64,000 bases of DNA from Saccoglossus kowalevskii. Taxonomy: Eukaryota; Hemichordata; Enteropneusta; Harrimaniidae. The position numbers were made by a program, and so were the translations under genes. The DNA lies in NCBI RefSeq assembly GCF_000003605.2, contig NW_003149765.1, positions 162,296 to 226,295 on the forward strand. Reading direction: 5' to 3'. This document shows, one piece after another, positions 28-61,693 of the stretch. The notes beneath the pieces were generated by a model. That model worked only from the letters and a program-made list of their open reading frames with translations. It was not told the origin of the DNA and did not search any database. Numbering within the stretch: the stretch's first letter is position 1; each line of letters starts with the position of its first letter.

Positions 28-731
28 CATTACAAGTCGATGGTTTGGGAATACGTTTCACACCACTTTCCAACAACAATCGAACCATCTCGAAGTTGTT
101 GCTCTCTGCGGCCAGCTGAATTGCGGTGACAGGTAGCATTTTCCGCATGACAACGCAGTTAATGTCGAGTAGTGCATTCTGCCAGAAAGGTGTAAACGAG
201 AGAAAAACAGTTGGCATTGTTAGATGCCATTAAATGGGAGGAATGGAATATATTATGTGAAGGAATGTATACGGCAGTTTAAGCATTTTGTTTGAAAATT
301 CTACACAAAATAAGTTATTGTGTATGAATACTACATAGTTCAGCCATATACAACGCACAAGACGTATAACTATAAAATATTATTTATTGATTACAGCAGT
401 ATGTGTTAGAAGGACAACATGGCCACTATGTGTTTTTAAGAAACAATTAAGAGCCATGAACTAATGAGTATGCAATATATGTTTGAGGCAAAGCGATGCC
501 TGTCGTGGCATAACGCACATGGAGTATGTGGACAGCATTTATCAGTGATTTGTTTATTAGCAAATGCGAAATTACCTTCAATAACTCTTTAGTTTTAACA
601 ACATCACCGCGTTCTACCGTAGATAAGAATTCAGCTTCGTCAGGCGCCAGTCCATTTTTTCCATCCACGAAATAAGACCACTCCTTCGTTGTCATTTGAC
701 AAAGATCACGTACGCAAGACCCCGCCGCCAT
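28..731 (-). CDS. G1: TRPC-like channel, exons 1-2 only (partial at window edge)
   Basis: This is the 5' end of a TRPC-type cation channel gene that continues beyond the left edge. Exon 1 is 576-731 (52 codons, ATG at 729-731) and contains CQMTTKEWSYF followed by an acidic helix and DVVKTKELLK. It ends at a GT donor in phase 0. Exon 2 is 28-178 (151 nt, phase 1 end) and encodes one clear ankyrin repeat, with PVTAIQLAAESNNFEMVRLL and a GVKRIPKPS turn. Both exons match G4 and G5 nearly residue for residue, with one extra codon near the start (MAAGSCVRD versus MAEPDVRD). Membrane and pore exons are not in the window, so completeness cannot be judged. The 5' flank carries a DR2 half-site pair at 935-948. 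The sequence shows exon structure and homology to its neighbours; channel function is inferred from the paralogues. Confidence 0.8.
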
Positions 732-779
732 GACAAGTTCTTGTACCGGCAGTCGTGTTCCTGCGTTACTAATGGATAA

Positions 780-3743: not shown

Positions 3744-3896
3744 ATGGCGGAGCCAGACTTACGGGATTTTTGTCAAATGACAACTAAAGAGAGGTCTTAT
3801 TTCATGGACGGTAACAATGGTCTGACACCCGACGAAGCTGAATTCATATTCAAAGTTGAAAGCGATGATGTTGTAAAAAATAAAGAGTTATTGAAG
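3744..3896 (+). pseudogene. Orphan TRPC exon 1 on the opposite strand
   Basis: These 51 open codons start MAEPDLRDFCQMTTKERSYF and end VVKNKELLK, equivalent to exon 1 of G5, but on the plus strand. The tryptophan kept in all six array genes (EWSYF, EWNYF or EWQYM) is arginine here. The donor after the last Lys codon is GC (GGCAAGAG) instead of GT. No exon 2-9 equivalent follows on the plus strand. Sequence 100 bp downstream already matches G5 intron 4, so exons 2-4 are deleted. I call it a pseudogene relic. A GC-AG intron joined to a distant exon is the alternative, which I consider unlikely. Confidence 0.8.
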
Positions 3897-4775
3897 GCAA
3901 GAGTTTTGCTTTGACTTCGATAGTACCACCCGAAGCCTAATTTGAGGTGTTATTAGATCTTGATCTACATATTAACACATTGAACATCACGACCGAATGT
4001 TATGCAAATCACCTAATCAATATTTGTGCCAAAATTCTGTGTTCAAAATATTGTATCTGTTGGGCAACTTCCATTTCAATACATCCCGATTTGAAACAGA
4101 CACACACATACGAACGGATGGGTGGATAAATCATCAGTACAAAATTTGTAAATATCTTTTTCCTACCTTCACCATCCTTTGCTATAATTGCATTAACACA
4201 TTCTTGATACAACAAACATGAAGAGGAAATAACACACTAAGTACTTTGTAGATGTGTGTCGTTAGGTCTTATCTGGTCAATATTCTTATCTTCTTATCAA
4301 TTTTCACCATAACAACTTTAATGTGGATCTTGAAAAAAAACATCTAAAAATGTTGCTCTGTGGGTTTTTGGTTGTCAACCCTTAAAGACAGTCAACAAGT
4401 ATTATTTGAGAACAAGCAAATTTACAATTCGTAGTAAAAAAAGATTGACGCATCTACATTATTGGTGATGGTATTGTACAGTTTGTTTTAGCTTATGTTT
4501 ACAAATTGAAACTCGAAAATTAAAATAGCATCAAAATGAGAAAATATGAAGTCAGTAACCAAACTGTGAAGATGAGTAACATTAATTTGAATGAAAAAAT
4601 AACGAAATAAATAGTACTAGTTCTGTCTAACAGAAAACTGTCAGTTGTTTTGAGTAAAAGCACGAAACATAAAGTTATATATTTGATTAATACTTATCTG
4701 AGTGTTTTTTTTATAGGATGTATGGTATGTGACCTAAGAATGGGAAATTATGTTCAACTAATACGCACATGCATA

Positions 4776-8186: not shown

Positions 8187-11100
8187 TCATGCTGTAATGT
8201 CTTCTGTTTTCACAACTTTATCATTTATAAATCTGCTGCACTTTATGTCTTTTTCCCGTATGACTTTTTTCTTCAGTAAATAACGAGCAAGAAGAACCTT
8301 AATGAGCTACAGAATGTGAGAGCACGGTTATGAAGAAAGTTAGTTGGCTATAATAAACTGCATTTATATAAACGATGTGAAAGTTCATATAACTTTCGTA
8401 TCTATAAACAATATTTCAAAAAGTTTGAAGTGTTCGTTACGATATCCTACCTGCTTATATTTCAAAATCTGGTTCTCTGTAGTCCTGAACAATGTAAACT
8501 GTAGGATGTAATGATGTAATTGTTAGTCAGTTACTACCGAATTTGTTCAATGTTTATGTTTGATACAATTCAGATGCCAGATTGACATGATGGTGAACGA
8601 ATGTAGACTATGTCGATGACTGAAAGGCATCCTCGGTCTTTGATTCATTTCGGGACGTATTTCAAATGCAAATAATATATTGTCATTAACGAATACACGT
8701 ATACGAGTATGCTATTAAATCAAAAGAATAAGTGAAGCCCCGAGTAGTAGCATAAATAAGTAGTCACCTCGATGTCTGTATTCGTCGCCAGCTCAGTTGA
8801 AGTCACCCCTTTAGTACAACACCTGAATAGTCGTTTAAATGATTTGGCAGATGGTATAATATTGTATGGTGCTGGTAGTACTGGAGCACAGATGTACTTC
8901 ATCCACATCTTTGTGCGAAGAAATTTCCACTCTATATCGATATTTTCCTAAACAGAATATTAACATTTTATTAACAGGTTACTGGCAATAATCCTGCCAA
9001 TAAAATAGCGATATGCTATTAAATATATTATTTAATTATACTCACTCTCATCCGTGTGTACGTGTCAGACATCATAGCAATACATATATTAAGCAGCATC
9101 AACATACATAGAGTTCCAAACATGGTAAACAGCAAAACACCCGTCCATTTGAACATAAAATTAGCATAAGCCGGGAGGTTGTAATCAGGAGTGGCATCAA
9201 TGTTTAGTTCGTCAGTTGGATCACCGCCAAATATTGTAAGGATCAAAGACGTTATTGATGATTCTAAACTTTAAAAACGAAAGTACTTTGTGTTATTTCT
9301 GTAAATCATATTAGTTTAATACAGGATTGCTGTGACTGATTTATTAAAATAATCGTCTTACAGTGGTTGCAGCTTTTATCTGTTATTTTTCTGTTTTTAT
9401 TATGTCTAAAAGCTTAATATACAATTTGTCAATTTAAAAAACATTTTGGCCAATCAATCAAATTATGAATTATTGAATAAAATAAAATCAACAATTATCA
9501 TTATCAATTTTATTTTCAATTTTCAATGTATACTTCTATACCGCATACTACTTTGAGGTCACATTTATTTATTATGCGTTTATTGATGGAATTGTTTCAA
9601 TTTGCTACAAATATGTAATAATTGGTTGTATTATATCGACGTCGGTAAGATCACGACTGATCCAACTCATGTATACACCTATTTGTCTATATCTTGGCTT
9701 CATTCAAATATTAGTAAATTTTGTTTTTGAATGAAATAACAAACAGATAATTCATCATTCATATATATCATCACAGACTGCATGTTATACTAAAAACATG
9801 TAAATCTATGATTAATTTATCAGATTAAACCACAAATGTTACGTTCCCATAATGGCCATTTTGTGTACGAAATTAGAACAATGTATATTTGCTTATGCAT
9901 AACCGAGACCCAACTATTGCTGGATTGTTGTTTTAGCATGTTTAACTGTTAAAATAACCACCAGCCGAAACTAATGTGTGTGATTATGCGTTATATGATT
10001 TGTGAAACAAAATGACCTGCATGAAGGCCTCATATATGTAAATGGAATCCACATCAACCCATGACATTTATGAATTTTTAGCAGAAAGCAGCCGCTATTT
10101 TGCCATCTTGCATTGGATTATGAACCGAATATGAATAAATGTTTACCAAGACGTATGATATATCAGTCCGAGAGTGGCACTAGGATGGCATACAATAAAA
10201 CATAATGTTGACCATTTTGAGTATAATGTACAAAAACGATTTACCCTATGTTCCTCTATTGTCTAATGCGTGTACCGAGTATAAAATCTGTCAACAAACG
10301 ACTGAGATCTTGTTTTTAAATTCTTGATTTTATGAATTAATAGTGGTCATATTGAATATTGAACACAAAACAATTGCACGTGCATATGTATCCGCAGATG
10401 TAGTATGAATGTGCGTAAATAGAACGTAAGGATACAGACAGACCAGTGAATGAACAAAGGGCTAATTAATTTATAAGGACCCAACAAGATATTTGTTTCT
10501 GGTCAAAAATGTGATATGAATTTTTACTGATTCACTTTTTTCTTGCATGGGTATGATACACTAGTGTGAATACATGTAATTTATATGTAATTAATGACCA
10601 AATTAGCAGATACAATTGCATAACATCAATAATTTAAAGTTTTTGTTTGAGTAACCTGCAATCTGATTACAACCAAATATCGTTTCTATATATATAGTTA
10701 TTTTTTCTCTATTTATAAATAATGTGGTTTTAATTGCTTATGTATTGGTGGCCCTAACAGTTGAGGCGACCATTCTCCCAGTTACCATATTGACAATTCT
10801 CTCAAAGATTTCACGAAATCTGTCAATAGTTTACACATTTTGGTTTATACACCTGAAGTCCCAGACAAAGCAATAGAAAAATGAAATTTGCATGTCGACT
10901 CCGACACAATCATAACATTCTTAGTAAAGGAATAATTTATCCCATAGTTGGATCATAAAAAAGAGCATTTTGCCTGTCACCTTATCCTCGATCTTGCGTA
11001 CTACGTGTTGCATTTTTTTCACTACACTCTACAGTTTTGTGGAAAAAACTCAAAAATCGATCGTACCATCATCAGCTATATTGCAGTTGGTAAGTGAAAT

Positions 11101-14100
11101 GGGAATGGAATATAGATTAAAGTAGTTATAATTTAATTTTTACATGCAGCTGATAACACTATAAGCCTTGCCATGAGTCACATATGTTTCATTGCTCACA
11201 TTGTTTTGTAGTCTAGTTAAAAAAATACCATCATTCAGAATGTCAAAAGATATTTCGCAATTCTTTTTTAAAATTACGTGACCAAGGTTCATTAGGTTGA
11301 GTTAATATACGCATGCAATTAATATCGCTTACAAAAATAACACCATTAAGCTTTGCGAGAAATATATAACTTACATCGACATAAATCGTTCTTGGTAGGT
11401 AAACAAAGACTGCAGTTGTAGTAATTACTAAATCATGTAACGCCAGTATTCATTGTTCGTTCATATCAATAATGTGTTACATGATTTGACCCCGATTATT
11501 TATACAAATGTTTTGAGTGGATAATATAATCACAATTTTTAAACATAACCATGTGAGTATACACCCTAATTTTTTTGTTGTATCGTTCATTACTGGAAAG
11601 ACGTAGGTCATATTATGTTAAGAAAAGATAAATAAGAAAATCATAAAATATCTAAATAATATAAATATGTGTGTTGTAATCAAAGTCACTAATAAAACCA
11701 AATACTTCTTGGCAGTAGGCAAGAAAAGTTGCAAATGACATTATTGACAACCTTGTTCACTAAACATAGTGTTGATCACCTTGGCGCAATGCTCAACAAT
11801 CGCCACTAGTCTACCTATTTATAGAAATGAGTTGTTCATTCCAAACAGCAATAATTCTAAAATAGGTATACCCTTTCGACAAATGCAAAGCTTTGTTGTG
11901 TTTTATGTTTCTTGTTTATGTGTTATGTGTTACTGTCCGAAATCGTATGTTGAAAATAATTATGTTCACATAAAATATTTAATGAGACAAAAAATCGTGG
12001 CGTTATGTCGAGAGTGAAACACAAATTTGACATTCATGAACGTATGATGTTTCTGACTACGTAAACAATCATATTAACCAGACTCTCGTTGATAACAAAT
12101 CGGCGTGGTTTAAACAGAATAGTTTCCTTTTAGAAAAAAAATGTTTTGCTTTGATCGCTTTAATATTAAACATATGCGTCGGTCTGAATGATTTCTGTGC
12201 CGTTATAAAATCCAAAACCGTGTTAAGCTTCCCAGTCTGGCAATTGCAATTGTTTGTTCGCCCGCGCTTTTTTGCGCCTAAAAAACTCGCTCGAACCAGT
12301 ATATCCGCGTACCCGAAACCATTGCCGTATTACGGAAACAGACATTCGTACTACAAGTATAGAGATTTTCGACATTTGCAAAACGCCTAATAGAATTATT
12401 GTCACGACCAAATATTGTGCAAAATCGGGCGCCAAACTCTTATGTCAACTGTCCTTCTCTGTTTCGAGGATGCATTACACTCATGAATTCGCGATGCATA
12501 CCACAATAAAAATGTACTGTATATACTTACAGGTTGAATGCATTGTCTGGAACACCTTCATACAGATAATAGAACCCAATTGCAAACGCTAACACAACAT
12601 ACACGAAGGTCACGAGAAATTTTATAACGTCATCTTTCATTGCAGTGAACAATAGGAGCACGGAACCAAGGTAATTTGTAAGGTAGATGTGTTCTAAGAA
12701 GCGTAGACAAGCTAGAGTCAGCGCCAGTGCTGTTGAATTGATCCAAAACACTTGCAGAGCATCTTCGACGTCAAGTACACTGTTCATAATCCATAATAAA
12801 ATGTCTATTCCAAATGACATAAAAACTATTATATCAAGATGATTCCATAAGTTCATTACATACTTGTTGAATCCTTCAGTCATTAGCTCTACGACCTCTG
12901 CCCAAATATACGCAACGTCGTATATTAATAGAAATACGAGTAGAATTTTCACCTCATAATTTAATTGGACGTTTGGATCTGTTTTGACATCTAAGATTAT
13001 AATGAGCACGAGAAAGAGTAAATATGACGTCATTTTCGTGAAATATTTGGCTTTCGGATTATCGATTATTTTTGCTACAGTGCAGTCTGGTGCTATGATA
13101 TAAATAATTGCTAACACAGGTAGCAAAGCTACATACATTAACACACAGTACGCGACATATAGTAACCACCAGCAGTTGTTAGTATGTTTCTCCTTCCACG
13201 ATGGTTGACCAAATTTCCAGATTTTCTTCATAATCTTCTGGGTTTTGTAATGTGCAACGAACTGTAGAACACATAGTAAGTGGTGAGTGAGGAATGGGTG
13301 ATATTACACTAACTAAAAAAGTAATTGAATAAATAAACGCTCTAGTAATTTATACTAGGATACTATATTGTTTTGGGAATTACATACTACAATCATAAAA
13401 GGAAGGCAACCAATGCAAACAATGATCTATTCAGATTAAGTTCGATGCTAATTCCAATTTTAGATTTCAATATTGTTTTTAATATTTTACCTCTTTATGA
13501 CAGCTCTCTATGGCTTTACTAATAATAGCTTCTTTATCTGGAAGTGTAATTGCCAAAACACCAATATCCTTTCCAGTCAGAAGAGTGTAGACTTCTTTCA
13601 TATCTTCGCAACAGTCAAGCAAATCCAATGAATATTGGAAAGCTTTTTTTCTTACCTTCTCATAGTTTTCCTGTTTTGTTGTATAAATTATAATGTGCAT
13701 AGTTTGGAATGATTTGAAAATGACAAAAAAATTGTAATTGTTGTACAATTCACAATTGATATTCAATTCTGACGTATGTCACGCCATGGACATGTAATCG
13801 CTGTTGTAAATATTTTAATGACTTATTGAATTGTTAAATAACAAATACCCACTGTCATAACTAAATTAACTAGCTTTGTTTGTGTTATTTGATTTGCATG
13901 TAATTAAAATCTTACGTCTGTCACGCCTTTAATATCTTTTGCAAGATCAAAACAAGTCATTAGTGGGTCACTGTTGGCTGCACTCAGGTAAGCAGGTGAT
14001 GTTAGAGCTTTATATGTTTCGAACATTTTATCATAGTCCAATATGTTTCTTTGCTCTACAAAAGAGTAATTCATTATGTTTATGGAATATTAGGCACGTC

Positions 14101-14666
14101 CATTGCCATTAGACATGTATCTTTCAGTGAATGACATTCGTCTACAGCCATATAACTATAGTTTGTGTCCACTTACTCTTGAACTTGGATGGTCTCGTGA
14201 TTGGCTTAGCTCCTTTGTTTAGAAGGAGATTGATCATGTGATAATCGTTATTTTTTGCCGCTATTTGCATTGCCGTTATTGGTTGTTTTTTCCGTCGACC
14301 TACGCAGTTGATGTTGACCTCGTCATTCTGTAAGTATTAGCAAAATAGAATGGTGCAAAATTACCCTCAATGTCAATGGAAATGTCCGACTAGTCAGTCT
14401 CGTTCATCATCATTAGGTTAAAATGGTATACAATACGTATTATTTCCCATCAATCAGATTCACATCATCGTGTAACAAAACAGTAAGTATGTGTAAATAT
14501 GCACAGTATGTGTATTTACCTCCAGGAATAATGCAACTGCATCTAGATCTCCGCGTTGAACGGCTGAAATAAATTCTGTTTCATTTTTTGTTAATGCCTT
14601 GTTAGTTCTGTCTTGCATGAAATAGTTCCATTCTGCTCTGGTCAACTCATAACTTATTGTAGCCAT
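8187..14666 (-). CDS. G2: short TRPC-like cation channel, 9 exons, 639 aa
   Basis: Exons in coding order: 14520-14666, 14177-14327, 13916-14055, 13491-13670, 12531-13261, 9046-9268, 8768-8947, 8451-8498, 8187-8306 (stop TGA). Residues 1-97 are an N-cap and ankyrin helices ([24 protein letters not shown]). Residues 98-206 are the TRP_2/linker region ([20 protein letters not shown]). Exon 5 starts FVAHYKTQK and encodes S1-S5, with the TRPC-typical IWAEVVELM and NLWNHLDI around S2-S3. Pore residues are IFGGD 462-466, S6 has [16 protein letters not shown] box EWKFLR is at 530-535 and LPAPYNI at 548-554. The protein ends soon after the LARYLLKK helix. It is a predicted plasma-membrane non-selective cation channel subunit. 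Exon 3 is 27 nt shorter than in G4-G6. The exon-6 acceptor (TTTTTAAAG) is weak but is the only one that keeps frame. A possible AATAAA lies at 7962-7967. Confidence 0.88.
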
Positions 14667-19100: not shown

Positions 19101-22100
19101 TCATGCTGTATCTCCTGCTGTCATATCTGTATCATCAGTAGCTTGACTGCACTCTATATCTTCCTCCTTTATAATCTCTTTCATCAGTAAATAACGAACT
19201 AGAAGAACATTAATGAGCTACAAAACAGAACAGTTATACAAATGTTTAGTTAACGAAAATTTGCATTCAAATAAAAGTCTCGTATGTTTGATATTATCTA
19301 ATTAACATACACCTTTAAGCGACATCCTACCTGCTCGTAATGAAGAACCTGTTTCTTATCTTCTTTCAAGGACAATGCGAGCTGTGAAGTATAATGCAAA
19401 TTATGCAGTCAAGTGTTACATAATATTGTTATTACTTATGCAACATGTGTCAGATTTCAGATTGCCATGAAAGCGAAAGCATGTAGAACCAAAAGGCATT
19501 CTGGAAATTTAAATATCAGCTTTTCCATGTATAGTATTATACAAAACGAAAATCACCTCCATTTCATCATTTGTCTCCACCTCAGCTGATGTCGTCTTTT
19601 TGATACAGCTCATACAGAGTCGTTTAAATATTGAAACGTTTGGTACAATGTTGTAGGGTGCTGGTAGTACTGGCGCACTAATGTAATTCATCCAAATCTT
19701 TGCACGGAGAAATTTCCACTCAGTGTCGATATTTTCCTGAAATCAATATTACAACAATATATATGCAGCAAACCTTTGCATTATTCTTGTAAATAAAATT
19801 ATGGCATATTAACAATTAATAGGTAAAATTTAAAGATACTCACTCTCAACTGTGTGTACGTGTCAGACATCATAGCAATACATATATTAAGTAGCACCAA
19901 CATACATAGAGTACCAAACATGGTAAAGAGTAAGAAACCCATATATCTGTACATAGGATATGCATAATAACCCTTGGTATTGTGATCGGGCGTGGCACCA
20001 AAGTTCAGTTCTTCACTTGGATCACCGCCAAATATTGTCAGTATCAAAGAAGTTATTGACGATTCTAAGCTGCAAAAAAAATAATGTATATTAATTGTGT
20101 ATTAAGGAGCTTTAATTGACCCAAAGGCCTAATTCTACGGCGGTAAATAATGCTGAAATAATCGACATAATTATTAATATTTTGGTTTGTTGTTTAAAGA
20201 GAGACTTCGTAAATTATGTGTATATCACAAATGTGGATATCACCAAAATCTAACCCTTTTAAACAAAATTAAATCAACACGGTCAATTATCACTTTTGGG
20301 ATTTCCAACATTAACTCGCAAAAACAATATTCAATAAACATATTTTAATAGTATTAGTATTAGAATGTAATTGTAAAAAAAAGCAAAATGTAATCACTTG
20401 TTCAGAAACACATATAACTTTACTAAGATATACGTCACAGAAAAACGACATACGTAAACGTGGGTCAGGGTTATTGGTTATTATACAAATCTTATATAAG
20501 AACAGTAGGTTTTGTGAGGAACCGTCTTGCACTACATTTGTTACTGTAATGTATCGCTATTATAACATAATTTATTACAGTACATATACTTACTTGTTAA
20601 AAACACTGTCTTTAACACCTTCATACAGGTAGTAGAACCCAAATGCGAACGCTAACACAACATATATGAAGATTACCAGAAATCTGGTAACGTCCCCTTT
20701 CAGCTCAGTGAACAAGAGGAGCAGGTGGCCAAGGTAGTTGGTCAGGTACATATGTTCAAAAAAGCGTAAACAAGCTAGAGTCAGAATCAGAGCTGTCCAA
20801 GTAAACCAAAACACTTGTAGTGTGTCATCGATTTCGTCCAAACAGTTCAATAACCTCAGTGAAATGTCCGATCCAAATGACACGAAAATCAACAAGTCAA
20901 TATAATTCCAATAGTTCGTGAAATATTTTTTGAATCCAATACTCTTAAGCTCCACGATCTCTGCCCAAATATATGCAGTGTCGTATATTAGTAGAAACAT
21001 TAGAAGACCCACTAACATATCACTTAATGGGTCATTTGGGTTTGGGGCAATTTGGACATTTAACACGATAATGAGTACCAGGAAAAGTAAGTATGATGTC
21101 ATTTTGGTGAAATATTTGGCTTTTGGATTATCGAGTATTTTTGCCACAGTGCAGTCTGGTGATATGATATAGGCAGTTGCTAACACAGGCAGTAGAACTA
21201 CATACATTAATAGGCAGTACGCAACATAGAGAAACCACCAACTCCAACTGTCAGAATGCTCTTTCCACAATGGCTGTCTATGCCTCCAGATTGTTTTCAT
21301 AATCTTCTGGGTTTTGTAATGTGCGATGAACTGTAGAACAAAGGATATTTTATGTGTCTGACAATCTGAATAATCTAAAAAAAATAATTAAACCATTCAG
21401 CAGTTTATGAAAGGAAATGGTTATAAGTGTTCTACTGGAATTACGTACAGATTGCCTGGACTATGAATAATGATTCATTGATATGTTCGATGCTTATCGT
21501 CATTTTACACTACATATCAGAAGCGTAATATTACGTTCACCTCTTTATGGCAGCTCTCTATGGCTTTACTGATAATGGTATTTGTGTCTGGAAGTGTAGT
21601 TTCCATGCAATCAGTATCTCTCCCAGTCATAAGCGTATAGACTTCGTTCATGTCTTCACAGCATTCAAGCCATTCCATAGAATACTTGTAAACTTTTTTC
21701 CTCATCTCCTCATAGTTTTCCTGTCATTGTAAGTAGTTTTGTGAGGTAATGCAATAACTGCCTGACTTGGCGTAACTATTCAAAGCTGAGAATGTATTAT
21801 GATAAATATTAATAGACGATATGTGGTCTATCTGTAATGTAATCGCTGTCCCTTATGCAATAGTTAAATATTAAATACCTATGGTCACTACTAAAAAGCA
21901 TTGTGTGTGTTATTCAATTTCGATGTAATTAAAATCTTACGTCTGTCACGCCCTTAATATCATTGACAAGATCCATAGAAGTCGCAAGTGGATCACTGTT
22001 AGCTGCACTCAGGTAGGCAGGTGATGTTAGAGCTTCATATGTTTCGAGCATATTATCATGGCCTAATATGCTCCTTTGTTCTACGAAGAAGTAATTAATT

Positions 22101-22669
22101 TATATTAATGAAATATAGAATTAGTGAAGCACGTCAAAGTTATGTTAGTTATATTATACACATTTAGTTTGTTTTGTGAATATAATTTAAGTTTGCGTTC
22201 ACTTACTTTGAAAGGTCGATGGTCTTGTGATTGTCCTAGCTCCGTTGCTTAGTAGCAGATTGATCATGTGATAATCGTCATTTTTTGCCGCTAATTGCAA
22301 TGCCGTTATTGGTAATTTTTTTCGCCGGCCTGTACAGTTAACATTTATTGCGCCACTCTGTATGGTAGTAAACACAGATTATTGAGAGAACTACTGTGCT
22401 ACATCACTTCGACACACAATTTGAATAGGTATGCAATGAGTAGTGCTTATTTGTCAATCAAGTTACTAACAACATTGTGTAACGAAGCAGTAATTATGAA
22501 ATATAAGCACATATGTACTTACCTCTAAGAGTAATGCAACTGCATCTATATCTCTGCATTCAACGGCTGAAATAAATTCTGTTTCATTCTTCGTTAATAC
22601 ATCGTTGGTTTTGGCCTGCATGAAATAGTTCCATTCTCTTCTTGTCAACTGGCAACCTTTTTTGGCCAT
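19101..22669 (-). CDS. G3: short TRPC-like cation channel, 9 exons, 642 aa
   Basis: Exons: 22523-22669, 22207-22357, 21941-22080, 21541-21720, 20594-21330, 19844-20069, 19557-19736, 19331-19381, 19101-19217 (TGA). It is the closest paralogue of G2 and the most compact gene in the array. The start MAKKGCQLTRREWNYF aligns with G2's [16 protein letters not shown]. The ankyrin repeat is in exon 2 (PITALQLAAKNDDYHM) and the TRP_2-like segment in exon 3 ([13 protein letters not shown]). S1-S5 are in exon 5, with [14 protein letters not shown] and IWAEIVELKSIGF. The pore IFGGD is at 464-468, S6 has [13 protein letters not shown], the TRP box EWKFLR is at 533-538 and LPAPYNI at 551-557. Like G2 it lacks nine residues at the exon 3/4 junction. 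Frame is open through all nine exons, so it looks functional. The TRPC assignment is from motif order; ion selectivity and activator are unknown. Confidence 0.89.
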
Positions 22670-27982: not shown

Positions 27983-34514
<6,532 letters not shown>

Positions 34515-37960: not shown

Positions 37961-38027
<67 letters not shown>

Positions 38028-41000: not shown

Positions 41001-44000
41001 TGATTTTGCAAAAAGCAAGTCACGAATTGTTATACATTACATTTAATTATGTAAATTACACCATCTAACTGTAACTGCTTAAAATTTGTTACACTTTTTT
41101 ATGTGCAAGCGGTGCCCATCATATTTATTTCTCATATGGCAGTATCGATATCAGTACTCATTAGTCATTATCATTAGTGTTCAAGGTAACAAGCAACTAA
41201 ATCACTTCGGTACATACTGAATTATTTGGTTGGCTGGGTCACGTTGGTTTCTATGCCTCTATACTATCTAGATTGTCAAGACATGTAATACAATTAACCT
41301 TTAATTATACTTACCTTCATTCTTGCATAAGTATCAGACATCATGGCGATGCAGATATTAACCAATACTAGCATACACATAGTACCAAACGATGCATATA
41401 GTATGAACCCCATTGCTTTGTACATAGGTCCTGCATCGACTATAGCCCCAGTAACGTTAAAAAGCAGATCGTCAGCTTTCAAATTGTCCGTCGGGTCGCC
41501 ACCAAAAATCGTGGTAACCAGGGCAACAAACGACGTAGCGAATCTATATTTATGTAAAACAGATAGTAACAGTGTAAAATAGTCAATGATGTTATGTTAG
41601 TTCGTGCGTGTAAGTAAAGTACAGGTTTGTGGGCTATCAGAGACTGAATCATTGTTCAATCAATTCAAACACGGTATAAATGCAGGTTGTTGGAACTTTG
41701 AGTGAAAAAGCAAATGTGCCTAAGGGTAAAAATACAATACCTTGGTCACTGTTTGTATTTCCAATAGGAAATTTACATTAATTCAGTTCTGAAAACATAA
41801 TTTAGTTTCCTTCATGTAGCTTGTTTACACGATTCCCCGTGTATTTGTGAACAAAAAGTAGGCCTGGTATATTTTTGTTTATTAATTTGCTCATTTTTAA
41901 ATAATGTCACAATAGCAGTGTGTAATAATTAACTATAGAAATATATAACATATATAATGCAAACACTAAACGTAGTATTCAAAATTCCAGACAGTCGTTT
42001 GTGAATAAACAATCTATGAACATAATGTGAAAGTTGCATATGATATAAAAATAAATTGTGGGACTTATTTAAATTTGAACATTCCAGATTGAAGCAAGCA
42101 CAGGTTCTTTACTCAGGATGACTATACATGAAATGTTTATTATGCAAATCGAAAACTGTCATCATTAGTTTCAACTAAGTTGCACTTAAACTATTTTTGT
42201 ATGACCTTGGAAGTCATGTAAAACATTCATATGGAAATATTGTTGCGACTTTTCATATAAACCACAAGTACCCACGAGACTGTATTAATATGTTAAACTA
42301 TCTGAGATCTGTCATATTGAAAAAGAGTTTCTCTTCAAGTACAAATTACAATACTCACTCGTTGAAAACATTAGAAGTATCAATATCGTCATATAGGTAG
42401 TAGAATCCAAGGGCAAACGCCACGACAGTGTATACAAATATGATGAAAAACTTGATGACGTCACCAGTCATTGCACTAAATATTAGTAGCATGGGACCGA
42501 GATACAGAGAAAGATAGAAATTCTCCATGGATCGAAGACAAGCAAGAGTGAGAGTGAATGAAGGACACGTGATCCAGAATAAGTACAACTCATTGTTGAT
42601 CGGAACATATTTTAAAAGACTAGCAAGACGGAAGGAGATGTCAGTGAGAAACGAGAACAGGATCAATAAATCCATGTAGTTCCAGAAAGACGTGAAGTAA
42701 CATTTTAATCCGCTTATCCACATTTCTTGAATCTCGCTCCAGATGAGAGCAATAATGTAGATTAGGAGAAAAGTTATAAAATACGCATATGACGATTTAT
42801 AATAAAACGTGCCATCAAGCTCTATGTTAAACAAGACGACCAGAAAAAGAAATTTATAGTAAGCCACCATTTGCATAAGGAATTTGGCTTTAGGGTTATC
42901 CAGAATTTTCGCCACTGGAGAGCAAGGTGCTATGATATATATAACGGCCAGTAGTGGCATTAGTAACACGTATACAATCAAACAGTATATGCAGTACAAA
43001 AACCGCCACCAAAAGCTATTCCTGCAATGCCATCCTGGTTGTCCTTTGTGCCAAGCCTTTCTCAATACGTTCTGACATTTGTAGTGTGCTATTAACTGAG
43101 AAAAAACATTACTTGTAATACATTAGTTCAATACAAATACAGTTAACAAAACATAGACAAGTAAACGCAACACAATCGGTAAAAACAAATACAAATTTTA
43201 TACAATACAATTTTACGTAAAATCACTTTCTTACAAATATGTTCTAAAATACTATTACAATCTCATTAAAATAAATTGTATTATACATGTATTTTTTATT
43301 GAATAAATGTTTTTATATTTGCTATTATTTAACACATTTTACATACATTTATTTTGAATACTTTTAGCTAAGCTTTTTTTTGGTCTTGATGCTCTATAGG
43401 ACTGTGAATTGGGAAAAACTGAAACTCTTTTCTTGTATTGTACATCAGAGCATTTTGTTCAATGAAACAATGAAATCCTCTAATGCACCATTATTTTTGT
43501 GGGTACAATACAATCACAGCACATGCTTATGAATTTTCATTTAATGAATTTTTTTGTGTGTCCTGCAAACACAATATTTGTAGTTGATGATCAATCATAA
43601 TCCGATTTGATGTACATTATAAAGTATCAAACAGCGATGGTTTACCTATGATTTGATTAATACAACACTAATTTACGATAATTATGATTTTGTTGGGGTC
43701 TATTCTACATCAATAAGTTATAGGGAAAGAAATGAGAAACCTTTTAACTTTTAAAATCATTGGGAGATGTATTTCCCATTACCACAGATTGCGCACTTGT
43801 GGTAGCTTCATTCGGATTACTTTACCCGTCATGCACTACAGGATTGTGCACGATAATGTCATAATACATTTTTAACATGGAGAAACAAATGTAATTTTAC
43901 CAAATTTGTTGGCCCAAGTAAGCCAAGAATCTGTAGTGTACATGTTACTAGTAACACTATTTGGTATGTTTTAATATGCATTCGTAGGTTTATAACAAAT

Positions 44001-47000
44001 GAACACAAAGACAATGTGGCTGTATACCTAATGATTTGTAACAACTAATTAATTAATAAGCTCACTGTTCATCATTTAAGTTTGGGGTGTACATAACCAT
44101 TTACAATTATAAATATATCTTGATCATGCATCGGAAACTTACGATTTCTTTCATATTTAACTTTTGGGATTTTAAAATAGTATTGCCATAATGAGATCAA
44201 ATGTGAACAACAGCTAGGAATTTCTTCAATGATAGCAGTAATCACATAGACAAGCTCCAAATTGTTATGCAGGTAACATTTTGTCCTATGTGAAATTCTT
44301 GTTAAATGTTATTGTTAAAAGCAAGTCTTGCTATATATTCTGTAGCCTTTGATCACTAAAATCCAAAATTGGTATCGTATAAATATTTATAGTGAAGCCC
44401 AGACAGTAACTGTAGAAAATTCATGAATTTATATTTTAGTTATAGCAGTTGAGTTGATAAGTAAACTATGCTAGCTACAAATGAAAAATAAACATAACAT
44501 TATATTTGTTCATAGTCTACATAATGTTAACATGCACATCTACATCAATATAAAAACATCGATAAGTTGTCGATAACTCCCCCTCGATGTACATATTTAT
44601 CTGAATGGATGAATGAATGAGATGATTGGCTTAGTTTAAGTAATACTTGACATTCAGTTAAATAGATGTAAACATTCTAAAACAAACAAATATAACCAAT
44701 AATGTAGAAATAAAATCATAGATCAGTAGAAAAAGATCCTGCTATATTAGTTATAACATTTAAGATTTCTTATGCAATTGTTCGTACTCTTGAATAAACA
44801 TCACAGCATAAAATGTTTATAAAACTTTTTATTTTAGTAAAAGTTAAATGGTATGATTACGAATTCTACTGTTGACTTGAAAATCTTCAATAAAGTATAA
44901 AATATGCAAAACAAAATACAACAAAAAATGGGAATTTGCGCTACTTGAAAATCTCAACCAAACAACTAGATACAAATCGAATGAAGAATATCAACGTCTT
45001 TGTTGTATTACTTGCTGTCAATTTGTCTAAAAAGAGTGAAACTCAAAATGTAATTTAAAAAGACATATCAGTGGTTACTATGGTGAGCTTTATTTTCTAT
45101 CAGGAAATACACCTAATTATCATGACAATAAACATAAGATTAAGAGCTTATTTTACAAAGAATTTATATCCATTCAACCGATACGAAGAATCCTCGGCCA
45201 GAGGGACTCAGAGATAAGTGAACAAAGAAAACGTATTTAACTACTAATAATTTAACCTGAAATAATGGAATTGAGTTCATGGGTGATTGATCACTGAATA
45301 TTTTATGAGCAAACCTAAACATTCAAACCAATTGATCAAGTTATGATCAAGCTAACTGAGTGTCAAGTATATAGATGCCATAAACGAATAGTTCTCAAAT
45401 CAGTATTCATTAAATCTATAACTTCTATAACAGACTGTTTCTTCAATACTACGGAACTAGTACTATTTAGTTTGTTATTTTGTCATTCAAATTATTGTTT
45501 TTCATCTTTTCTGTTCTAATTTTGGCGAATAGTTTGGCAAGTTTTAATTTGTAACGTTAAAGCAAACTGTACAATTCTAGCATCAATAATGCATCAATAA
45601 TGCATCAAAGATGCATCAATCTTGTTTTACCACGAATTGTAAATTTGCTCATTCTAAAATAATAATTGTTGACCTTACGCGTCCTTGGGGATTGACCACC
45701 ATAAACCCGGTGAGAAACGTTTTTTAGTACACATAATTGTATTCACCACCTCAAAATTGCTCTCGGTGATATAAACTTCGTGATATGAATATTCACCAGT
45801 TAAGCCCCAAGGACACATATCTGCTGAGTGTGTTGTTCCTCCATAGTTTATGGCAGACACCCGCATAATATATAATGTTATTTTAAGCAAACGCTGTTGA
45901 AGGTAGAAAATGGTATTTACGATTTGACATAATTGGTGGAAATTAATAAATCGTTAAAATGGCCAACAAGCTAGGGTGTTTGTATCGTTTCATGCAAAGT
46001 ACATGTTGCAGTTAATTTTAAATCGTCCGTATGTGTGTTTGTTGTATTCGGGTCGTATTGAATTGAAAGTTGCCATACATATTATTACGAACACTAGGCT
46101 TGATTAGATTTTGATAAAAATACTGATTAGGTGATTTGTATAAAAATCAAATTTAGCATGTTCATTTTGTTATTTTTGCACATATTTGCACATATAAAAT
46201 TGTGTATATGATTGATGTTTATGCAGATGCTGCCCACAATACCGCCCTTTGGTCATTTTGATTCCAATAAAAAAACAGACACCAGTAATCCATCATGAGC
46301 TAGCTATTGTTATTAGCAAGTCTGAACAAATTTAGAATGCGTGCAAGTAGCTAGACCCATAATAATGAATAGGAATGAATAACGTCAAAATAGAAACAGT
46401 TCTAACATAACGCATTGCATTTAGAATCGCACTACAACGAGTTTATGGTACGCACCTCCTTATTGTCGGTTGCTATAGCTTTAGTGACTACTTTTCCTTT
46501 CAGGAGATATTCACTTCTCATTTCTTTAACACCACTGCTTCCACGCATCAGAGTAGACACCTCTCTAGAACTCTCACAACACTCAAGCCAGTCGGTCGTA
46601 TACTGTTGTACCTTATTTTTCAATTCAGTATATCTCGCCTTGGTGAAAACAAAACGAAATAAAAGATACATTATAGAACTGCGTCACACCAAAAGCTACG
46701 TTAGCTGTAATATTTAGTTGCTGTAGTAAAAACGTTTAAAATATATAATGATATAATATCCAATACCAGGGATGTCATTCGAATTTCTCTCGCGTTAGTT
46801 ACTTCCTGTAAATCGTTCGCTAGATCCATTGAAGCCATGACTGGATCACGATTAGCGAGAGTCAGGTACGCAGGTGAAGTTAGGCCACAAAATAAGCTGT
46901 ATCTTAAGTCGTCATCCAAAATATGTTCCTCTCCTGAAATAAAGCATATTCCGTGTAATCTAACACTATATAAGCGTGCATGGTACCGATGTCATGATCA

Positions 47001-47562
47001 ATGTGTCATTGCACTAACCATTACAAGTCGATGGTTTGGGGATACGTTTCACACCACTATCTAACAACAATCGAACCATCTGAAAGTTGTTGCTCTCCGC
47101 AGCCAGCTGTATTGCCGTGACTGGTAGCATTTTCCGCATGACAGCGCAGTTAATGTCGAGTAATCCATTCTGTCCAAAATATGAAAAAGAAGAAAAATGC
47201 AACGATGATTTTTGATTGTAGGGTTTTTGTATGAGCAAATATATACCATGGATTATCAGGTCACTTCGACACAACAACGAGTATGGATAATATATAACAC
47301 AGAACGGTTTCACTACATAGTAGGTGAATACAATGAATGGTCTGTCGCCGTGTAACACACACAAGTAGGTGGATATCAATTATGGATGACTAGTTGATTC
47401 AACTCCTACCTTCAATAACTCTTTCGTTTTTACAACATCGCCGATTTCTACCGTTAATAAGAATTCAGCTTCGTCGTGTGTCAGACCATTTTTACCGTCC
47501 GTGAAATAAGACCACTCTTTTGTTGTCATTTGACAAATATCACGTACGTCTGGCTCCGCCAT
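36863..47562 (-). CDS. G5: short TRPC-like cation channel, 9 exons, 664 aa
   Basis: Exons: 47410-47562, 47019-47169, 46767-46933, 46456-46638, 42359-43095, 41315-41543, 37483-37659, 37313-37375, 36863-36997 (TGA). It is the sister of G4. Start MAEPDVRDIC has an in-frame TAA three codons upstream. Domains by residue: ankyrin region 1-102, TRP_2/linker helices 103-218, S1-S5 219-463 (PGWHCRNSFWW pre-S1, IWSEIQEMWISG, FWNYMDLLI), pore IFGGD 476-480, S6 [16 protein letters not shown] box EYRFMR 546-551, LPAPYNI 564-570, and a final LRARYMLMKG helix. TRPC proteins assemble as tetrameric cation channels, usually downstream of phospholipase C; that role here is inferred. Intron 4 is 3.4 kb. Intron 6 is 3.65 kb, against 0.75 kb in G4, because of an inserted block (about 37800-40930). 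A DR2 half-site pair lies at 47789-47802. Confidence 0.88.
37964..38020. repeat. (AT)n microsatellite in G5 intron 6
   Basis: About 57 bp of pure AT within the intron-6 insertion block of G5. Confidence 0.95.
39880..40790 (-). pseudogene. Degenerate coding-like sequence in G5 intron 6
   Basis: A 114-codon minus-strand frame (40437-40781; includes RRVSQFVGLTRKQERLIV) is followed, after a frame change, by Asn/Asp-rich sequence with two stops (LNDLNIDNESRAIT, then ALNDNVDKDY). An acidic stretch (FPVDMSDDMDDAESIDC) follows at about 39950-40050. I do not recognise the protein. It sits in the block present in G5 intron 6 but absent from G4 intron 6, which suggests an inserted, decayed mobile element or retrocopy. 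No reverse transcriptase, protease or integrase motif is visible. Confidence 0.3.
45579..45622. repeat. Short tandem repeat in G5 intron 4
   Basis: Three to four copies of an 11-bp unit around ATGCATCAATA, expanded relative to the matching site in G4 (near 32595), which has one. Confidence 0.7.
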
Positions 47563-49327: not shown

Positions 49328-49330
49328 AGG

Positions 49331-51983: not shown

Positions 51984-52072
51984 TTGTCATGTCCGAATCG
52001 CACGGTCCCGTGTCCTTGACCTATAGGCCTCTACACGACACCATGCGGGAGCGCATAGGCTAATTGTATATC

Positions 52073-52321: not shown

Positions 52322-52458
52322 AACACGCAAACTGATTGTACAATGATTAGCCGCAACTGACTACTAGGGGCGCTGTTAGAATACGGATGGTCGATGGTGG
52401 TTAGGCCAAGGTCTGTTTAGAGGCTTGGCCGAATAAACTTAGACCTTGGCTAGCGAAG

Positions 52459-56040: not shown

Positions 56041-59000
56041 TTATTTCTCATTTATATTGATACAGTTAGATGAAATGTTGGGTACATCCATGTTGTGATG
56101 ACAGTTTTGTCGAATCAGTTCATCCTCGCTGATGATGCCCTTCGAGATCAAGTAACGATTCAGTAGAATGGGGATTAGCTACGGGAATAAGAACAAACAT
56201 AAATAGAAACCTAATCACTCGTGCTGTCCAAAATATTGGTATTGCAGTAATAATTTAATAACATAAAAAAGTGCCATGCGATATCCGATTTGATTTTGAT
56301 GAAATGTACTAAATTTTGTTAATCATCAGTCTCTTGTAGTATAAACACCGTTTATTTGAACTCAGTAATATACGGATTAGGAAACATGTTTTTTTTTGTC
56401 ACTTACTTGCTCGGACGAGGACGTTCTAACCATTGGAAGTCCACAACTAGACATTTTTGTCGGTGAATTCTCTAGCTGTAAAATAAAATTTACATTCATT
56501 ATTAAAAAAATGAACAAATCCACACAAGTTAAAAGTTGGACATTGTTGTTTCCCTTGATCGCAAAACATAAACGGAGGTATATTGAAAATGTTGAAAAAC
56601 ACCAAAATGTTTCATAGGCAAATGCCAATCCATTCTAGAATGTAGCAAAAGTGCATTGGGTGTTGCGAAAATATGTACATCAGTTTATATTATAAAATGC
56701 ATTGGGGTTATGAAATGTAACTCCGCGTTTTAGCACCAAATGCTCAAACTCTTATTATTGAATCTACAGAAAACAATATAGAAAACAGCACTCTATAGTA
56801 TAGTATAGTATAGTATAGTGCAAATGTGATTTGAAAACACCACTGAGTTAACACGGGTAATCAATTCTGTTCTAATCGGCGGACTAAGCACAGAAAGTTG
56901 CTAAATTACACATTGTACTTGCTGACACATTGTGAAACACTGTCTTATCTGTATTGGCGCCGACATATGCACTTAGTTTGTAGTTGCAATATTTGGCACA
57001 ACCAATCTTTTTCCGGGACCAATGCAATTGACAGTATGAACACCACTATCAAAGCAAGGGTATATATCGAAACAAATATTATAAATACCTTTATATCTGC
57101 TTGAACGTTTTTTGTTTTATTCCTGTAGAAGCATTTTCGAGCAATGTTTTTCACACACACCACAGATGGGAAAATGTTGAATGGTGCTGGTAAGACTGGT
57201 GCATCTACATAGTTCACATACACTGTAGTTCGGAAATACTTGTATTCTTTGTCCATTTGGTGCTAAGTGATTTAACATTTTATTATTATATTTTTATTGT
57301 TTGTATTTGTAATTACAATAAAACCACTCGTTTATATCAATTTGCGATGTGATTGCCTGGTAGCACATGAAAAAAAAAGCTTTCGGTTAAGCATTATTGT
57401 TTGCATTTTATTGAAAATAAAACAAAACACATAAACTGATGGCGTTTATCGCAATACTAACTAGTGACTGTTCACACTAAAGGCCACGACTATGGAATAT
57501 ATTCATAATGATCCTGTGAAGTATCGTCAATATAGTACATGGCAAATAAGGGATGACTATGTACATGTGCGTATCATTATTGCAACGAGTATATACACAC
57601 ACTTTATATATAAATACTATTCCTATCGGGATATGAATTTCGATGTGTTAAACGTTGGCGTTATATGACGTGATGGAATATTCATCAAATGTTTTACCTT
57701 AACACGTACTTACACATTTTCTTGCGTATGTATTTGACATCATGGCAATACATACGGAAAGCAGTACTAGCATAACAAGCGTGCCAAACACTGCGTATAA
57801 CGTAAAGCCTACCCCTTTGTACAAAGCTGATGCATCATATAGCTCGTTCGATGTGTTGTTCACTAAAACCACAACGTTGAGACTGTTGGTGGGATCACCG
57901 CCGAATATTGCCGTAATTAACGTCGCAATCGTAGTACCAAAGCTGAATGCAGTAACAAATGACATGCATCAAATTACTGACTTGGTAAGCTGTGACACAG
58001 GTTGCTCATACAATACACAAGTAATACGTTTTAATGGTGGGTCTCGTGCATGCCAAATAGACAAGGTTCTCCTTCGAAAATATCCGTATAGATGACAACT
58101 TGTGAACGACTAAGGAGTGTTTTATAACAAGCGACTTACTTGTTGAATTGGGTTTTCTCAACGCCATCGAATATGTAATAAAATCCAATGGCAAACGACA
58201 TCACAGCAAATGTGAAGATAACTAGAAATCTTACAACGTCGGCTTTCATCGCAGAAAACATTAACATCATAGGCCCCAAGTTAGAAGACAAATATAGATT
58301 CTCCATAAGGCGTAGACAAGCAAACGTAATAGATATACCTGTCCATGTAAACCAGAAAAGAAAGAAGGAGTCGGGGATATCGACCAAGAAATACCCATGC
58401 AGAATGCGAAGAGAAATGTCTACGAGGAATGAGAAAAGAATCAACAGATCCACGTAGTTCCAGAAATCGAAAAAATACTTAGTAGGTCCGTATATCATCA
58501 TCTGGGTCATTTCTGCCCAAAGCAATGCAATGTCATAAACGAGAGCCAATAACAATAATGGCACATATAACACGAGCAGGTCATCGCCAGTATATTTATC
58601 GAATAACATATTTAGAATGAGAACCAATATCAAAAACACGACGTAGGACACCATTTGCGTAATAAACTTTGCCTTGGGGCTGTCCAAGATTGAAGCTAGA
58701 CTACATGTAGGTGCAACGATGTAGACTATAGCGAAGAACGGCAGCAGTATTACGTAGAAGAGGCAACAATACAATACGTAGATAATCAGCCAATGTATGG
58801 CGTTTCGACGATACCACTCGGGTTGGCCGCGATGCCATATATTCCTTACAATGTTTTGGCATTTATAGTGGGCGATGAACTGAAAAAAAATGAAATTCAT
58901 GACTGCTGAGTTGAACCATAAGTGTTGTTAAAATAGGCACTGATTACCCACAATTGCACGTTATTTAATAAATTATCTATCTAAAAACTACTAACAAGCT

Positions 59001-61693
59001 AAAAACAAACTATACAATTTATTGACTCTCCACCAAACACAAACTTCGTATGTTCATAAAAAATATATTAAAGTTGAAAAATGCATTCAGCTAATGAAAA
59101 TTATGAAATATGTTATATTTAGTTTTGTTGATTACGCATGGTTGCGCCCAAACATAAACGCTACACAAATACACAAAATTATACCATTTTATATTGCATT
59201 ATAAAATCAATATGTATTTTGCCTTGTGTATGTTATATAATCAAACTTTTTTTAAGAGTTTGGATAGAAGATACACGTAAAACACCACGAAAAGATATGG
59301 TAAGAGACTGCAAACCGCGATCGTGCGATTTAACATACTAAATAAAGTTATACCCCATAACCTACATTTTCTCGTTTTGTTCATATTGATTAGCCCACAG
59401 TTTCCGTCATAATCTAGCGATCTTTTGGAATTTTATCAAATCTCTGGTTTATTTATATCTGTAAATCCACACCTTATCGTGGTGGTAATAAAACTTACTT
59501 CTTTGTTGCGAGCCGCAATTGCACTCCTCAACATTTCACCTTTTTTCAATCGATTGTCTCCGTTTCCAAGCAATAGGGTTTTTACCTCTAACGAAGTGAC
59601 ACAGCAATCCAGTATCTCCACGGCGTACTTCTCAGGCGTCTTTCTTAATTCGTTATACCGTCCCTAGTGCATTTACGTACAGAATTACTGACTATAGAAT
59701 TACTATGTATAACACAAATGCGAACATCATAGTAACCGAGTATGAACCATTGATTCAAAGTTGGCAAGTGCATCGTAAATAGCAAATATTTTCTTACCTG
59801 TGTTGTCACATTGATTTCCCTCGACTCGCTTACATTCCGAAGTTCACCAGTTAGATTGATAGCCGCCAAAAGCGGGTCTCTGTGTGCTAAGCTGAGGTAG
59901 GCAGGGGATGATATGGCGACATATCGTCTAAACCGAGCATCTTCGTCTGTAATATCTTCTACCCCTGTTATGGCAAAAAAAAAAAATATCGAAATGATCA
60001 AACGTATGTTATTTTAATCGTTAGAAATTGTGATGAAAAATGTTAATACGAAAATAATGCACTGTGTGAACTATACACATTGCAATATATATTGTCATGA
60101 GATATAAAATCAATTTTCCAATCTGCGCATTTTTTTTTATTAAGAAAATATTAATAAAGGGGAGGAACGAGAATATGAAAATCCCATTTCCTAGTAAATA
60201 TAAACATGCCATGCCATGGTCTTTTTCGAATAATAATCATCCCGACCTTATCAGCCAATTCAAATATATTGAACACAGTGTACCTAGTCAAACTCACATC
60301 TTACAATGTGTCAATGACTCAATGTGACATACTTTGTGACAGTGCAATGAATATGTGTTATGTGCATATTCGTTTAACTGCCATAAACCGAATATACTGG
60401 ATATCATTCTGATCGCTCGAACAGTTTATATTTATATATATAATTCATAACGCCAATATTGACAAACACAAACTTTTTTGGTTCGGCAAGTTGGTTGAAA
60501 ACATATATTTATGCATCAAAATTCCCTTTACAATGCAACCAGTATTGAACACAGGCAGTGACCTAGTACAAGCTACAGTAAATATAATTCGAAAATGAGC
60601 CGTTTTTTCTGAATTCAATATGTGCAATATAAAGATATCTGTGATTTACAATATATTAGTTATGCATGTATAGTAAGTGTTGCAAAAATCCATTAAATAT
60701 TCATCTATCTTAAAATAATTACAGTATTATAGTGTGCATGGCGACTTTTGTACAAAATTACGTCAAATACCCCAATGCTTCCACTCTATGACTGACCATT
60801 TGACGGACGGGGGTAGTCTAGACGATTTGCGCCGCTGTCAATCAACAGTTTAACCATGTGGTAGTCATCCGCCTCAGCTGCAAGTTGTAACAGTGTCATC
60901 TGTTGTCCCATATGATTGTATATTAAGTTGCAATTGACGCCATTTCCTTCATTCTGCAATTAATAGTGTGTTAATTAATGTATTAAAATTAACCTATTAA
61001 ATGCATGTCGATTTTAATTGCGTTGTCGTGTATTATAATATATACATATTCTTTTAGGATACATTCACGCAAGTGCAAGCAAACATTGGTGTGAATACGT
61101 TACGGAGAACACTTGTATAGTGATGAGATATACAGGCGTGAGAACGTAACGCCAGCGAAAAAATATCAACATGGCGGAGTATAAATCACTTCGTACGAGG
61201 CGGTATTATCACCATGGTCTCCACGCCATTACTGTGACCATTCTAAGTGGATTAGGAAAGGGAATTTAGGTCAACTATATTCACTTTTAACCAAATTCTA
61301 ACCGCAAATAAAAATGCGTTTAAGTTGAAATATTTTAACATTTATGACATCTTCTTTTTTGTAACTAATGGGCGTGACTTGACCCAACTGTAACTAGTCA
61401 GAATACGGCGAATAGCAAAGAATGTACTTAAAATGACTGATATATCAAAATACACTTGGACCCAACAGTGTTGATAATGTAACACCATGTGTGAGGGGAT
61501 AAACAAGGTACAATCAATACATAGAATATAGAACCACGACACATACCTGTAATATATACTTTGCCTTGGGAACGTCGCCATGTTTCACCACTGAAAAGAG
61601 TTGACGTTCTTGATCTGTCAATCTCCCATTCGACAGTGACATGTACTGCCATTCGCATTGCGTCAACGGGACGAGACTTTCCGCGTTCATCAT
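56041..61693 (-). CDS. G6: divergent short TRPC-like cation channel, 9 exons, 661 aa
   Basis: Exons: 61547-61693, 60797-60953, 59798-59964, 59499-59663, 58140-58879, 57714-57942, 57089-57262, 56407-56475, 56041-56178 (TAA). Two adjacent in-frame ATGs open the frame (MMNAESL), with an in-frame TGA just upstream. Exon 1 (LTQCEWQYMSLSNGRL) shares little with the paralogues beyond the CEWxY core. The ankyrin repeat is MTLLQLAAEADDYHMVKLL and the TRP_2 signature is SPAYLSLAHRDPLLAA. Exon 5 opens FIAHYKCQN and encodes S1-S5 (LWAEMTQMMIYGP, FWNYVDLLI). Pore IFGGD is at 471-475, S6 reads LLSVCIAMMSNTY, TRP box EYKYFR is at 541-546 and LPAPFNI at 559-565. The exon-7 start is HQMDKEY where the others have ENI(E/D). 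Exon layout and phases equal those of the other genes, so this is an older member of the same array. Its upstream region shows no half-site pair. Confidence 0.88.
56795..56820. repeat. (TATAG)n run in G6 intron 7
   Basis: Five tandem copies of TATAG between exons 7 and 8 of G6. Confidence 0.85.

Follow-up and report, generated by a model that had tools for sequence, protein, structure and literature searches.

Among the channels described so far, the closest to the genes treated here are TRPC4 and TRPC5. According to passages of PMC6079076, every TRPC member conserves the pore-helix motif LFW, and mutating this motif is dominant-negative; passages of PMC5951680 state that changing LFW to AAA in TRPC5 gave channels that were folded but non-functional, that residue 580, just above the filter, matters for the Ca2+ permeability of TRPC5, and that for TRP channels no clear factor is recognisable for Ca2+ preference. 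Expansion of TRP genes in invertebrates is already known from oysters: in Crassostrea gigas, 66 TRP genes with tandem duplicates were reported, with seven TRPC3 and 21 TRPM2 (passages of PMC8004665). Here we describe a stretch of 64,000 nucleotides (the window) from the hemichordate Saccoglossus kowalevskii (GCF_000003605.2, NW_003149765.1), which lies inside an array of 15 TRPC-like gene copies across ~230 kb of one contig. We consider it likely that this is a tandem array of at least 15 divergent genes for TRPC-like cation channels, conducting, tuned by Ca2+ and with a rebuilt pore, some copies of which are decaying. The altered pore is a feature of the array that was absent from an earlier, preliminary description of the window.

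Gene models and extent of the array

The window occupies positions 162296-226295 of the contig (C3976; genome 572 Mb, 4830 contigs). Genes were modelled with a custom spliced protein-to-DNA aligner at 15 tblastn places and then refined with a profile built from these models, and model ends were carried out to an in-frame ATG and stop. Within the window, spliced alignment gave five complete genes (G4-G8) and exons 1-2 of a further one (G3), all on the minus strand; the remaining modelled exons of G3 lie to the left of the window on C3976. The models, in window positions and with exons listed from the 5' end of each gene, are as follows (all from spliced alignment, the last also from a search).

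28..731, minus strand: G3, exons 1 and 2 only; exon 1 576-713, ATG-extended to 731; exon 2 28-178
8187..14666, minus strand: G4, subgroup A, complete, ~657 amino acids; exons 14520-14648, 14177-14327, 13916-14055, 13774-13800 (doubtful), 13491-13670, 12531-13261, 9046-9268, 8768-8947, 8567-8607 + 8451-8484 (doubtful), 8241-8306
19101..22669, minus strand: G5, subgroup A, complete, ~645 amino acids; exons 22523-22654, 22207-22357, 21941-22080, 21767-21775 (doubtful), 21541-21720, 20594-21330, 19844-20069, 19557-19736, 19331-19381, 19152-19217
27983..34514, minus strand: G6, subgroup B, complete, 657 amino acids; exons 34362-34514, 33823-33973, 33548-33714, 33239-33415, 29941-30677, 29540-29768 (pore exon), 28614-28790, 28444-28506, 27992-28102
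36863..47562, minus strand: G7, subgroup B, complete, 664 amino acids; exons 47410-47562, 47019-47169, 46767-46933, 46456-46638, 42359-43095, 41315-41543, 37483-37659, 37313-37375, 36869-36997
56041..61693, minus strand: G8, complete, ~675 amino acids; exons 61547-61687, 60797-60953, 59798-59964, 59499-59663, 58140-58879, 57714-57942, 57047-57262 (3' end doubtful), 56407-56475, 56116-56178
3744..3908, plus strand: solitary exon-1 copy in inverted orientation, lying between G3 and G4; probably a relic

All five complete genes were free of in-frame stops, began with an in-frame ATG, ended in a stop codon and had GT-AG sites at each modelled intron. Thus the preliminary description, which had placed at least six TRPC-type genes on one strand with the five complete ones fully open, is borne out; it had bounded them at 28 and 61693, which are the boundary of G3 exon 2 and the in-frame ATG of G8. 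It had also assigned all of them one nine-exon layout with common intron phases, and this holds for G6, G7 and G8: G6 and G7 match exon by exon (153/151/167/177-183/737/229/177/63/111-129 nucleotides; phases 0,1,0,0,2,0,0,0), and G8 has nine exons in the same phases, with some lengths different and a doubtful 3' end of exon 7. The layout is not exactly shown for G4 and G5, which follow the same plan with exon 3 shorter by 27 nucleotides and with additional doubtful small exons (9, 27, 41 and 34 nucleotides).

Following the contig outwards and counting copies, as had been proposed, gave 15 copies on C3976, with gene models spanning C3976:131347 to 357-361 kb (G15 exon 1 is doubtful). The array continues beyond the left edge of the window, as the preliminary description had stated, and beyond the right edge as well. 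Of 34 genome matches to the S1-S5 exon of G8, 16 fell at 15 places on C3976 (133835-355780), and the TRP_2 domain exceeded the Pfam cut-off in at least 35 genome matches, at least 13 of them on C3976 (13 places), all genome-wide match counts being lower bounds. Twelve of the 15 copies lie on the minus strand and three (G1, G13 and G14) on the plus strand; the arrangement on a single strand therefore stands inside the window and not for the whole array.

Three runs of N (C3976:226296-237702, 266995-292104 and 305123-314116; 11.4, 25.1 and 9.0 kb) interrupt the array, and G10, whose first exons are missing, lies at the edge of the second. An intact solitary exon 1 is found at ~238.3 kb on the minus strand, with the first run of N directly downstream; because it adjoins this run, it suggests a 16th copy at that place. 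The ten models taken as complete (G1-G9 and G14) encode 645-695 amino acids. Stops that had been flagged in the matches of G1, G7 and G10 were found in none of the exon translations, and thus lie in intron parts spanned by the query. Stray exon-1 and exon-3 pieces were also seen, with stray exons at window 3744-3908 (plus strand) and near C3976:130.4 kb. Overall, the history of the array looks like birth-and-death by local duplication.

Pore, cation site and termini

Residue positions below follow TRPC4 numbering on a MAFFT alignment with 14 array rows. At the pore-helix LFW, L571 was kept and both F572 and W573 were replaced in all 14 copies, the resulting triplets being LVT, LVI, LIL, LIT, LLT, LTS, LIS or LLN. 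By comparison, LFW, LLW or LIW was present in the models on contigs C2917, C3160, C1005 and C4614 and in three of the four models on C4610; since the C2917 gene reads LIW, LFW is not strictly kept in that gene either. The filter read F-G-G-(D/N) in 12 of the 14 copies, FGSD in G12 and FTSD in G15, so that FG-(G/S)-(D/N) describes 13 of them. Residue 579 was Asp in 11 copies and Asn in three (G1, G9 and G10), while residue 580 was Pro in 11 and Ser, Val or Ile in G12, G13 and G14. The array is thus altered both at LFW and at residue 580: for example, the pore exon of G6 (29540..29768, minus strand) reads LVTTIFGGDP, against LFWSIFGLIN in TRPC4. The filter of TRPV channels is G-x-G-D, of which the G-(G/S)-(D/N) of the array is reminiscent.

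The S2-S3 cation site (Glu417/Gln420/Asn435/Asp438) read E-(E/Q)-N-D in 11 of the 14 copies. Elsewhere in the genome, the C2917 gene reads E-Q-N-D, and the C3160 and C1005 genes do not keep these residues. The TRP box of TRPC channels is EWKFAR, which is also found in the TRPC4 sequence used; the array has EWKF in six copies (G2, G4, G5, G12, G13 and G14), EWKY in G15 and EY-x-(F/Y) in seven.

At the N-terminus, the ten models taken as complete place the SPAY of TRP_2 at residue 113-119. Ankyrin matches to Pfam were weak and appeared in two of the three proteins scanned (G7, G4 and G8); judged by sequence, the array proteins appear to lack the four-repeat ankyrin hallmark, with about two repeats lost, consistent with the alignment of G7, which skips TRPC4 residues 94-142. 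In TRPC channels the coiled coil has its place in the C-terminus. In 12 array copies, 29-55 residues separate the RY of the rib-helix start from the stop, which leaves no room for it, and the C-terminal coiled coil appears to be absent.

Relationship to TRPC channels

Both Ion_trans and TRP_2 exceeded the Pfam cut-off in all three proteins scanned, the weakest TRP_2 (PF08344) score being 27.5 bits against a cut-off of 27. Against PDB sequences, the best match of G7 was TRPC4 (215 bits), followed by TRPC5, TRPC3, TRP-gamma, TRPC6 and TRPC1; the best chains from outside TRPC were an algal TRP (65 bits) and TRPM (56 bits). An AlphaFold model of the G7 S1-S5 exon was built with 15 rows from the same genome (13 array copies, leaving aside G11 and G14, plus the loci on C4568 and C346), and of its 40 Foldseek matches with E up to 0.001, matches 1-39 were all TRPC. 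Membership of TRPM or of the algal TRP was rejected by the score gaps in both searches. In both sequence and fold, TRPC is the known family that comes closest to the array.

A tree of 25 rows was built with 14 array copies (G11 omitted) and, as canonical rows, TRPC4 and the C2917, C3160 and C1005 genes. The four canonical rows stood together on one side (100/100), and the 14 array rows grouped with the C4568 locus (98/95), the tree not fixing the places of C4568, G12 and G15. The array alone is thus unsupported as a clade, yet its copies were not scattered among the canonical rows; such scattering is the outcome that the preliminary description had named as contrary to its proposal. That canonical orthologues had merely come to lie side by side is not supported by the tree, which separates the array rows from the four canonical ones. 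Exon structure differs as well: the C2917, C3160 and C1005 genes have introns within S1-S5, and the complete array copies encode S1-S5 in one exon. The tandem expansion proposed earlier is thus upheld by exon plan, PDB and fold matches and the tree, while its assignment to TRPC proper is held to "TRPC-like", because three tested TRPC hallmarks were not found.

Selection and divergence

The ratio of nonsynonymous to synonymous divergence (dN/dS, Nei-Gojobori) was 0.200-0.321 in 19 of the 91 pairs, namely those with dN below 0.35, which cover 11 copies; the copies comparable in this way are under purifying selection. The closest pair, G6-G7, had a synonymous divergence (dS) of 0.285; thus the array is not recent. 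By region, the corresponding ratio of proportions (pN/pS), pooled over 12 copies, was lowest in S5 (0.22) and S6 (0.25), middling in pore helix plus filter (0.34) and highest in the outer loops and C-terminus (0.61-0.74). Within subgroups, pore helix plus filter reached only 0.17 (B) and 0.20 (A), and the top outer-loop value was 0.99, in one loop of subgroup A, with none at 1 (the S1-S2 outer loop carries the label "S2S3?" in the pN/pS script).

Relative to the core, outer-loop differences gave ratios of 1.29-2.48 in 12 of the 91 possible array pairs (three above 2), 1.45-1.80 in three canonical pairs and 1.54 in one C4610 pair. Fast outer-loop evolution as a sign of sensing hence showed no clear excess in these 12 array pairs over the three canonical pairs, which are an unmatched control, being more diverged than most array pairs. 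The sensory role suggested in the preliminary description thus gained no clear support from this comparison.

Proposed function and alternatives

The explanation that we favour is that repeated local duplication made the array and that its products most likely work like TRPC4/5, as four-subunit cation channels of the plasma membrane. By analogy with TRPC4/5, they would open downstream of receptor and phospholipase C signalling, and the kept S2-S3 site would tune them by cytosolic Ca2+. The FW part of the LFW brace is gone, and an Asp/Asn has been gained just after the filter's second small residue; given these pore changes, conduction, and perhaps Ca2+ preference, should differ from those of known TRPC channels. 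Assembly would proceed, for want of a coiled coil, through the membrane domain, the rib-helix start and the N-terminal helices, and the many similar copies could give cell-type-specific or mixed channels. A more far-reaching version, which we offer as speculative and rather doubtful, is that of an undescribed TRPC-like branch with a G-(G/S)-(D/N) filter for the LFW-FGL pore and no coiled coil, whose members form a Ca2+-tuned set with distinct inputs, a receptor repertoire.

Several points weigh against the favoured explanation: i) LFW to AAA abolished function of folded TRPC5, and loss of FW in nature could, by that analogy, mean modifier or non-conducting subunits; ii) cation-site residues are changed in G10, G13 and G15, and exact EWKFAR was found in none of the 14 copies; iii) the fold match is partial (predicted local distance difference test 67.5; for the TRPC rows, TM-score by query length 0.47-0.58 and root mean square deviation above 10), and Foldseek scoring also draws on sequence; iv) the tree is unrooted, has four canonical rows only, carries two very long rows (L031 and L032) and holds no TRPC1, TRPC3, TRPC6 or any other TRP family; v) G11 is broken (its S1-S5 exon carries stops as well as a frame shift, and exons 6-9 were not found), and G13 has an in-frame stop in its pore exon (a second G13 stop may be an artefact of a 2-nucleotide exon in the model); vi) the 19 dN/dS pairs include neither G8 nor G12 nor G15, and G13-G14 still gave 0.255 although G13 carries a stop, so that pairwise dN/dS is blind to recent loss; vii) gating, Ca2+ preference and subunit mixing of the array channels are inferred.

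The main rivals are modifier subunits and a separate family next to TRPC. The array proteins might modify canonical TRPC channels, as TRPC1 does for TRPC4/5, and not conduct alone: the pore brace that TRPC5 needs (passages of PMC5951680 and PMC6079076) is absent, and a TRPC4/5-like gene is present in the same genome, on C2917. We think this unlikely, as S6 is well conserved, pore helix and filter show low pN/pS within both subgroups, though not when pooled, and at least 15 copies are many for accessory subunits. Nor does it seem likely that the genes form a separate TRP family beside TRPC instead of a branch inside it. Replacement of FW, absence of exact EWKFAR, the apparent loss of about two ankyrin repeats and the coiled coil, and the long branch to the canonical rows would fit such a family; on the other hand, the TRP_2 domain, the best PDB and fold matches, the ~150-bit gap to other families and the retention of LFW (C4614) or LLW (three of four models on C4610) at related loci argue for TRPC.

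It is improbable that the copies are mostly relics of an old cluster kept by chance and now decaying: this would agree with the damage in G11 and G13 and with the stray exon-1 and exon-3 pieces, but all five complete window genes have uninterrupted frames with a start, a stop and GT-AG sites, dN/dS is low in the 19 pairs, and S5 and S6 have the lowest pN/pS. That fewer, fused genes use the blocks as exons, or that the blocks are alternative cassettes, is exceedingly improbable, for although they are closely spaced on one strand within the window, a separate start and stop and the full set of domains occur in each complete window block, and three array copies lie on the opposite strand.

Conducting TRPC-like channels with a rebuilt pore thus remain our preferred explanation. 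Purifying selection has maintained TRPC-like genes without FW (shown for pairs among 11 copies), though LFW change is described as disabling TRPC5 (passages of PMC5951680 and PMC6079076). If the array copies conduct, they represent another way of building such a pore; otherwise, the array encodes a large modifier-subunit family. Moreover, the Asp/Asn beside the filter lends itself to comparisons aimed at the determinants of Ca2+ preference in TRP channels.

Other content of the window and the genome

The window had been described as holding no other clear gene. In agreement, a Pfam scan of 20 of the 124 open frames of at least 60 amino acids outside TRPC exons (simple-repeat frames excluded) matched only a 25-residue stretch resembling a DEAD helicase, below the cut-off, and no Rfam family reached its gathering score in the window. 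Three features were observed, this stretch among them:

52076-52360, minus strand: short helicase-like fragment (the 25 residues resembling DEAD)
49381-50198: 19-nucleotide tandem repeat, ~22 copies (49635-50049), flanked by inverted arms 49381-49522 and 50057-50198 that are 96% complementary; resembles a mobile element
23896-25255: nested inverted repeats (pairs I4, I7 and I15), perhaps a foldback element or one resembling a miniature inverted-repeat transposable element

On the mitochondrial contig (C4830; L029), COX1 is encoded on one strand, ND1 and COX2 on the other. Its code has TGA as Trp, AAA as Lys, ATA probably as Ile and AGA probably as Ser (two AGA codons in all), and the PDB sequence nearest to its ND1 is mammalian ND1; a plasmid-collection search yielded a single weak match, to bacterial nuoH. 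These traits tentatively point to a hemichordate-like deuterostome.

Comparison with known channels and related loci

At least 22 of the at least 35 TRP_2 matches lie outside C3976 (C1005, C1752, C814, C3160, C3977, C211, C3368, C3897 and others), and the genome seems, from these matches, to hold a large TRPC-type set overall. The related loci on C4568, C346, C4614 and C4610 (four copies) resemble the array in having S1-S5 in one exon, of 719-743 nucleotides, in six of seven models; unlike the array, C4614 keeps LFW, and its S1-S5 is modelled in two pieces. On C4610, at 481-610 kb (L033-L036), four divergent TRPC-like genes make up a second group. All four copies are without the cation-site residues, three have LLW, and the one tested had TRPC as its best PDB match.

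No TRPC array this large or with this pore was found among the literature matches listed, a set that lacks most subscription papers. The oyster expansions are alike in that TRP genes are multi-copy and partly tandem in an invertebrate. They differ in number, with seven TRPC3 in the oyster against at least 15 copies in one array here, and the passages of PMC8004665 are silent on an altered pore.

Within the same genome, the TRPC4/5-like gene on C2917 (679 bits to TRPC4) shares with the array TRP_2 plus the channel domain, the E-Q-N-D cation site and a phase-0 intron immediately upstream of the pre-S1 segment. It differs in lying on the canonical side of the tree (100/100), in having introns inside S1-S5, and in its FGL filter and LIW for LFW.

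With respect to TRPC4/TRPC5 (PDB 5z96 and 7d4p), the array replaces the FW of LFW and the FGL filter, its models carry no cysteines in the S5-pore turret, where TRPC4 has C549 and C554, and its proteins are of ~645-695 amino acids, skipping TRPC4 residues 94-142 and leaving no room for the coiled coil. On the other hand, the order of ankyrin/TRP_2, membrane segments, TRP helix and rib-helix start is the same, 11 of 14 copies retain the cation-site residues, and TRPC4/TRPC5 are the best match of the array in both sequence and fold.

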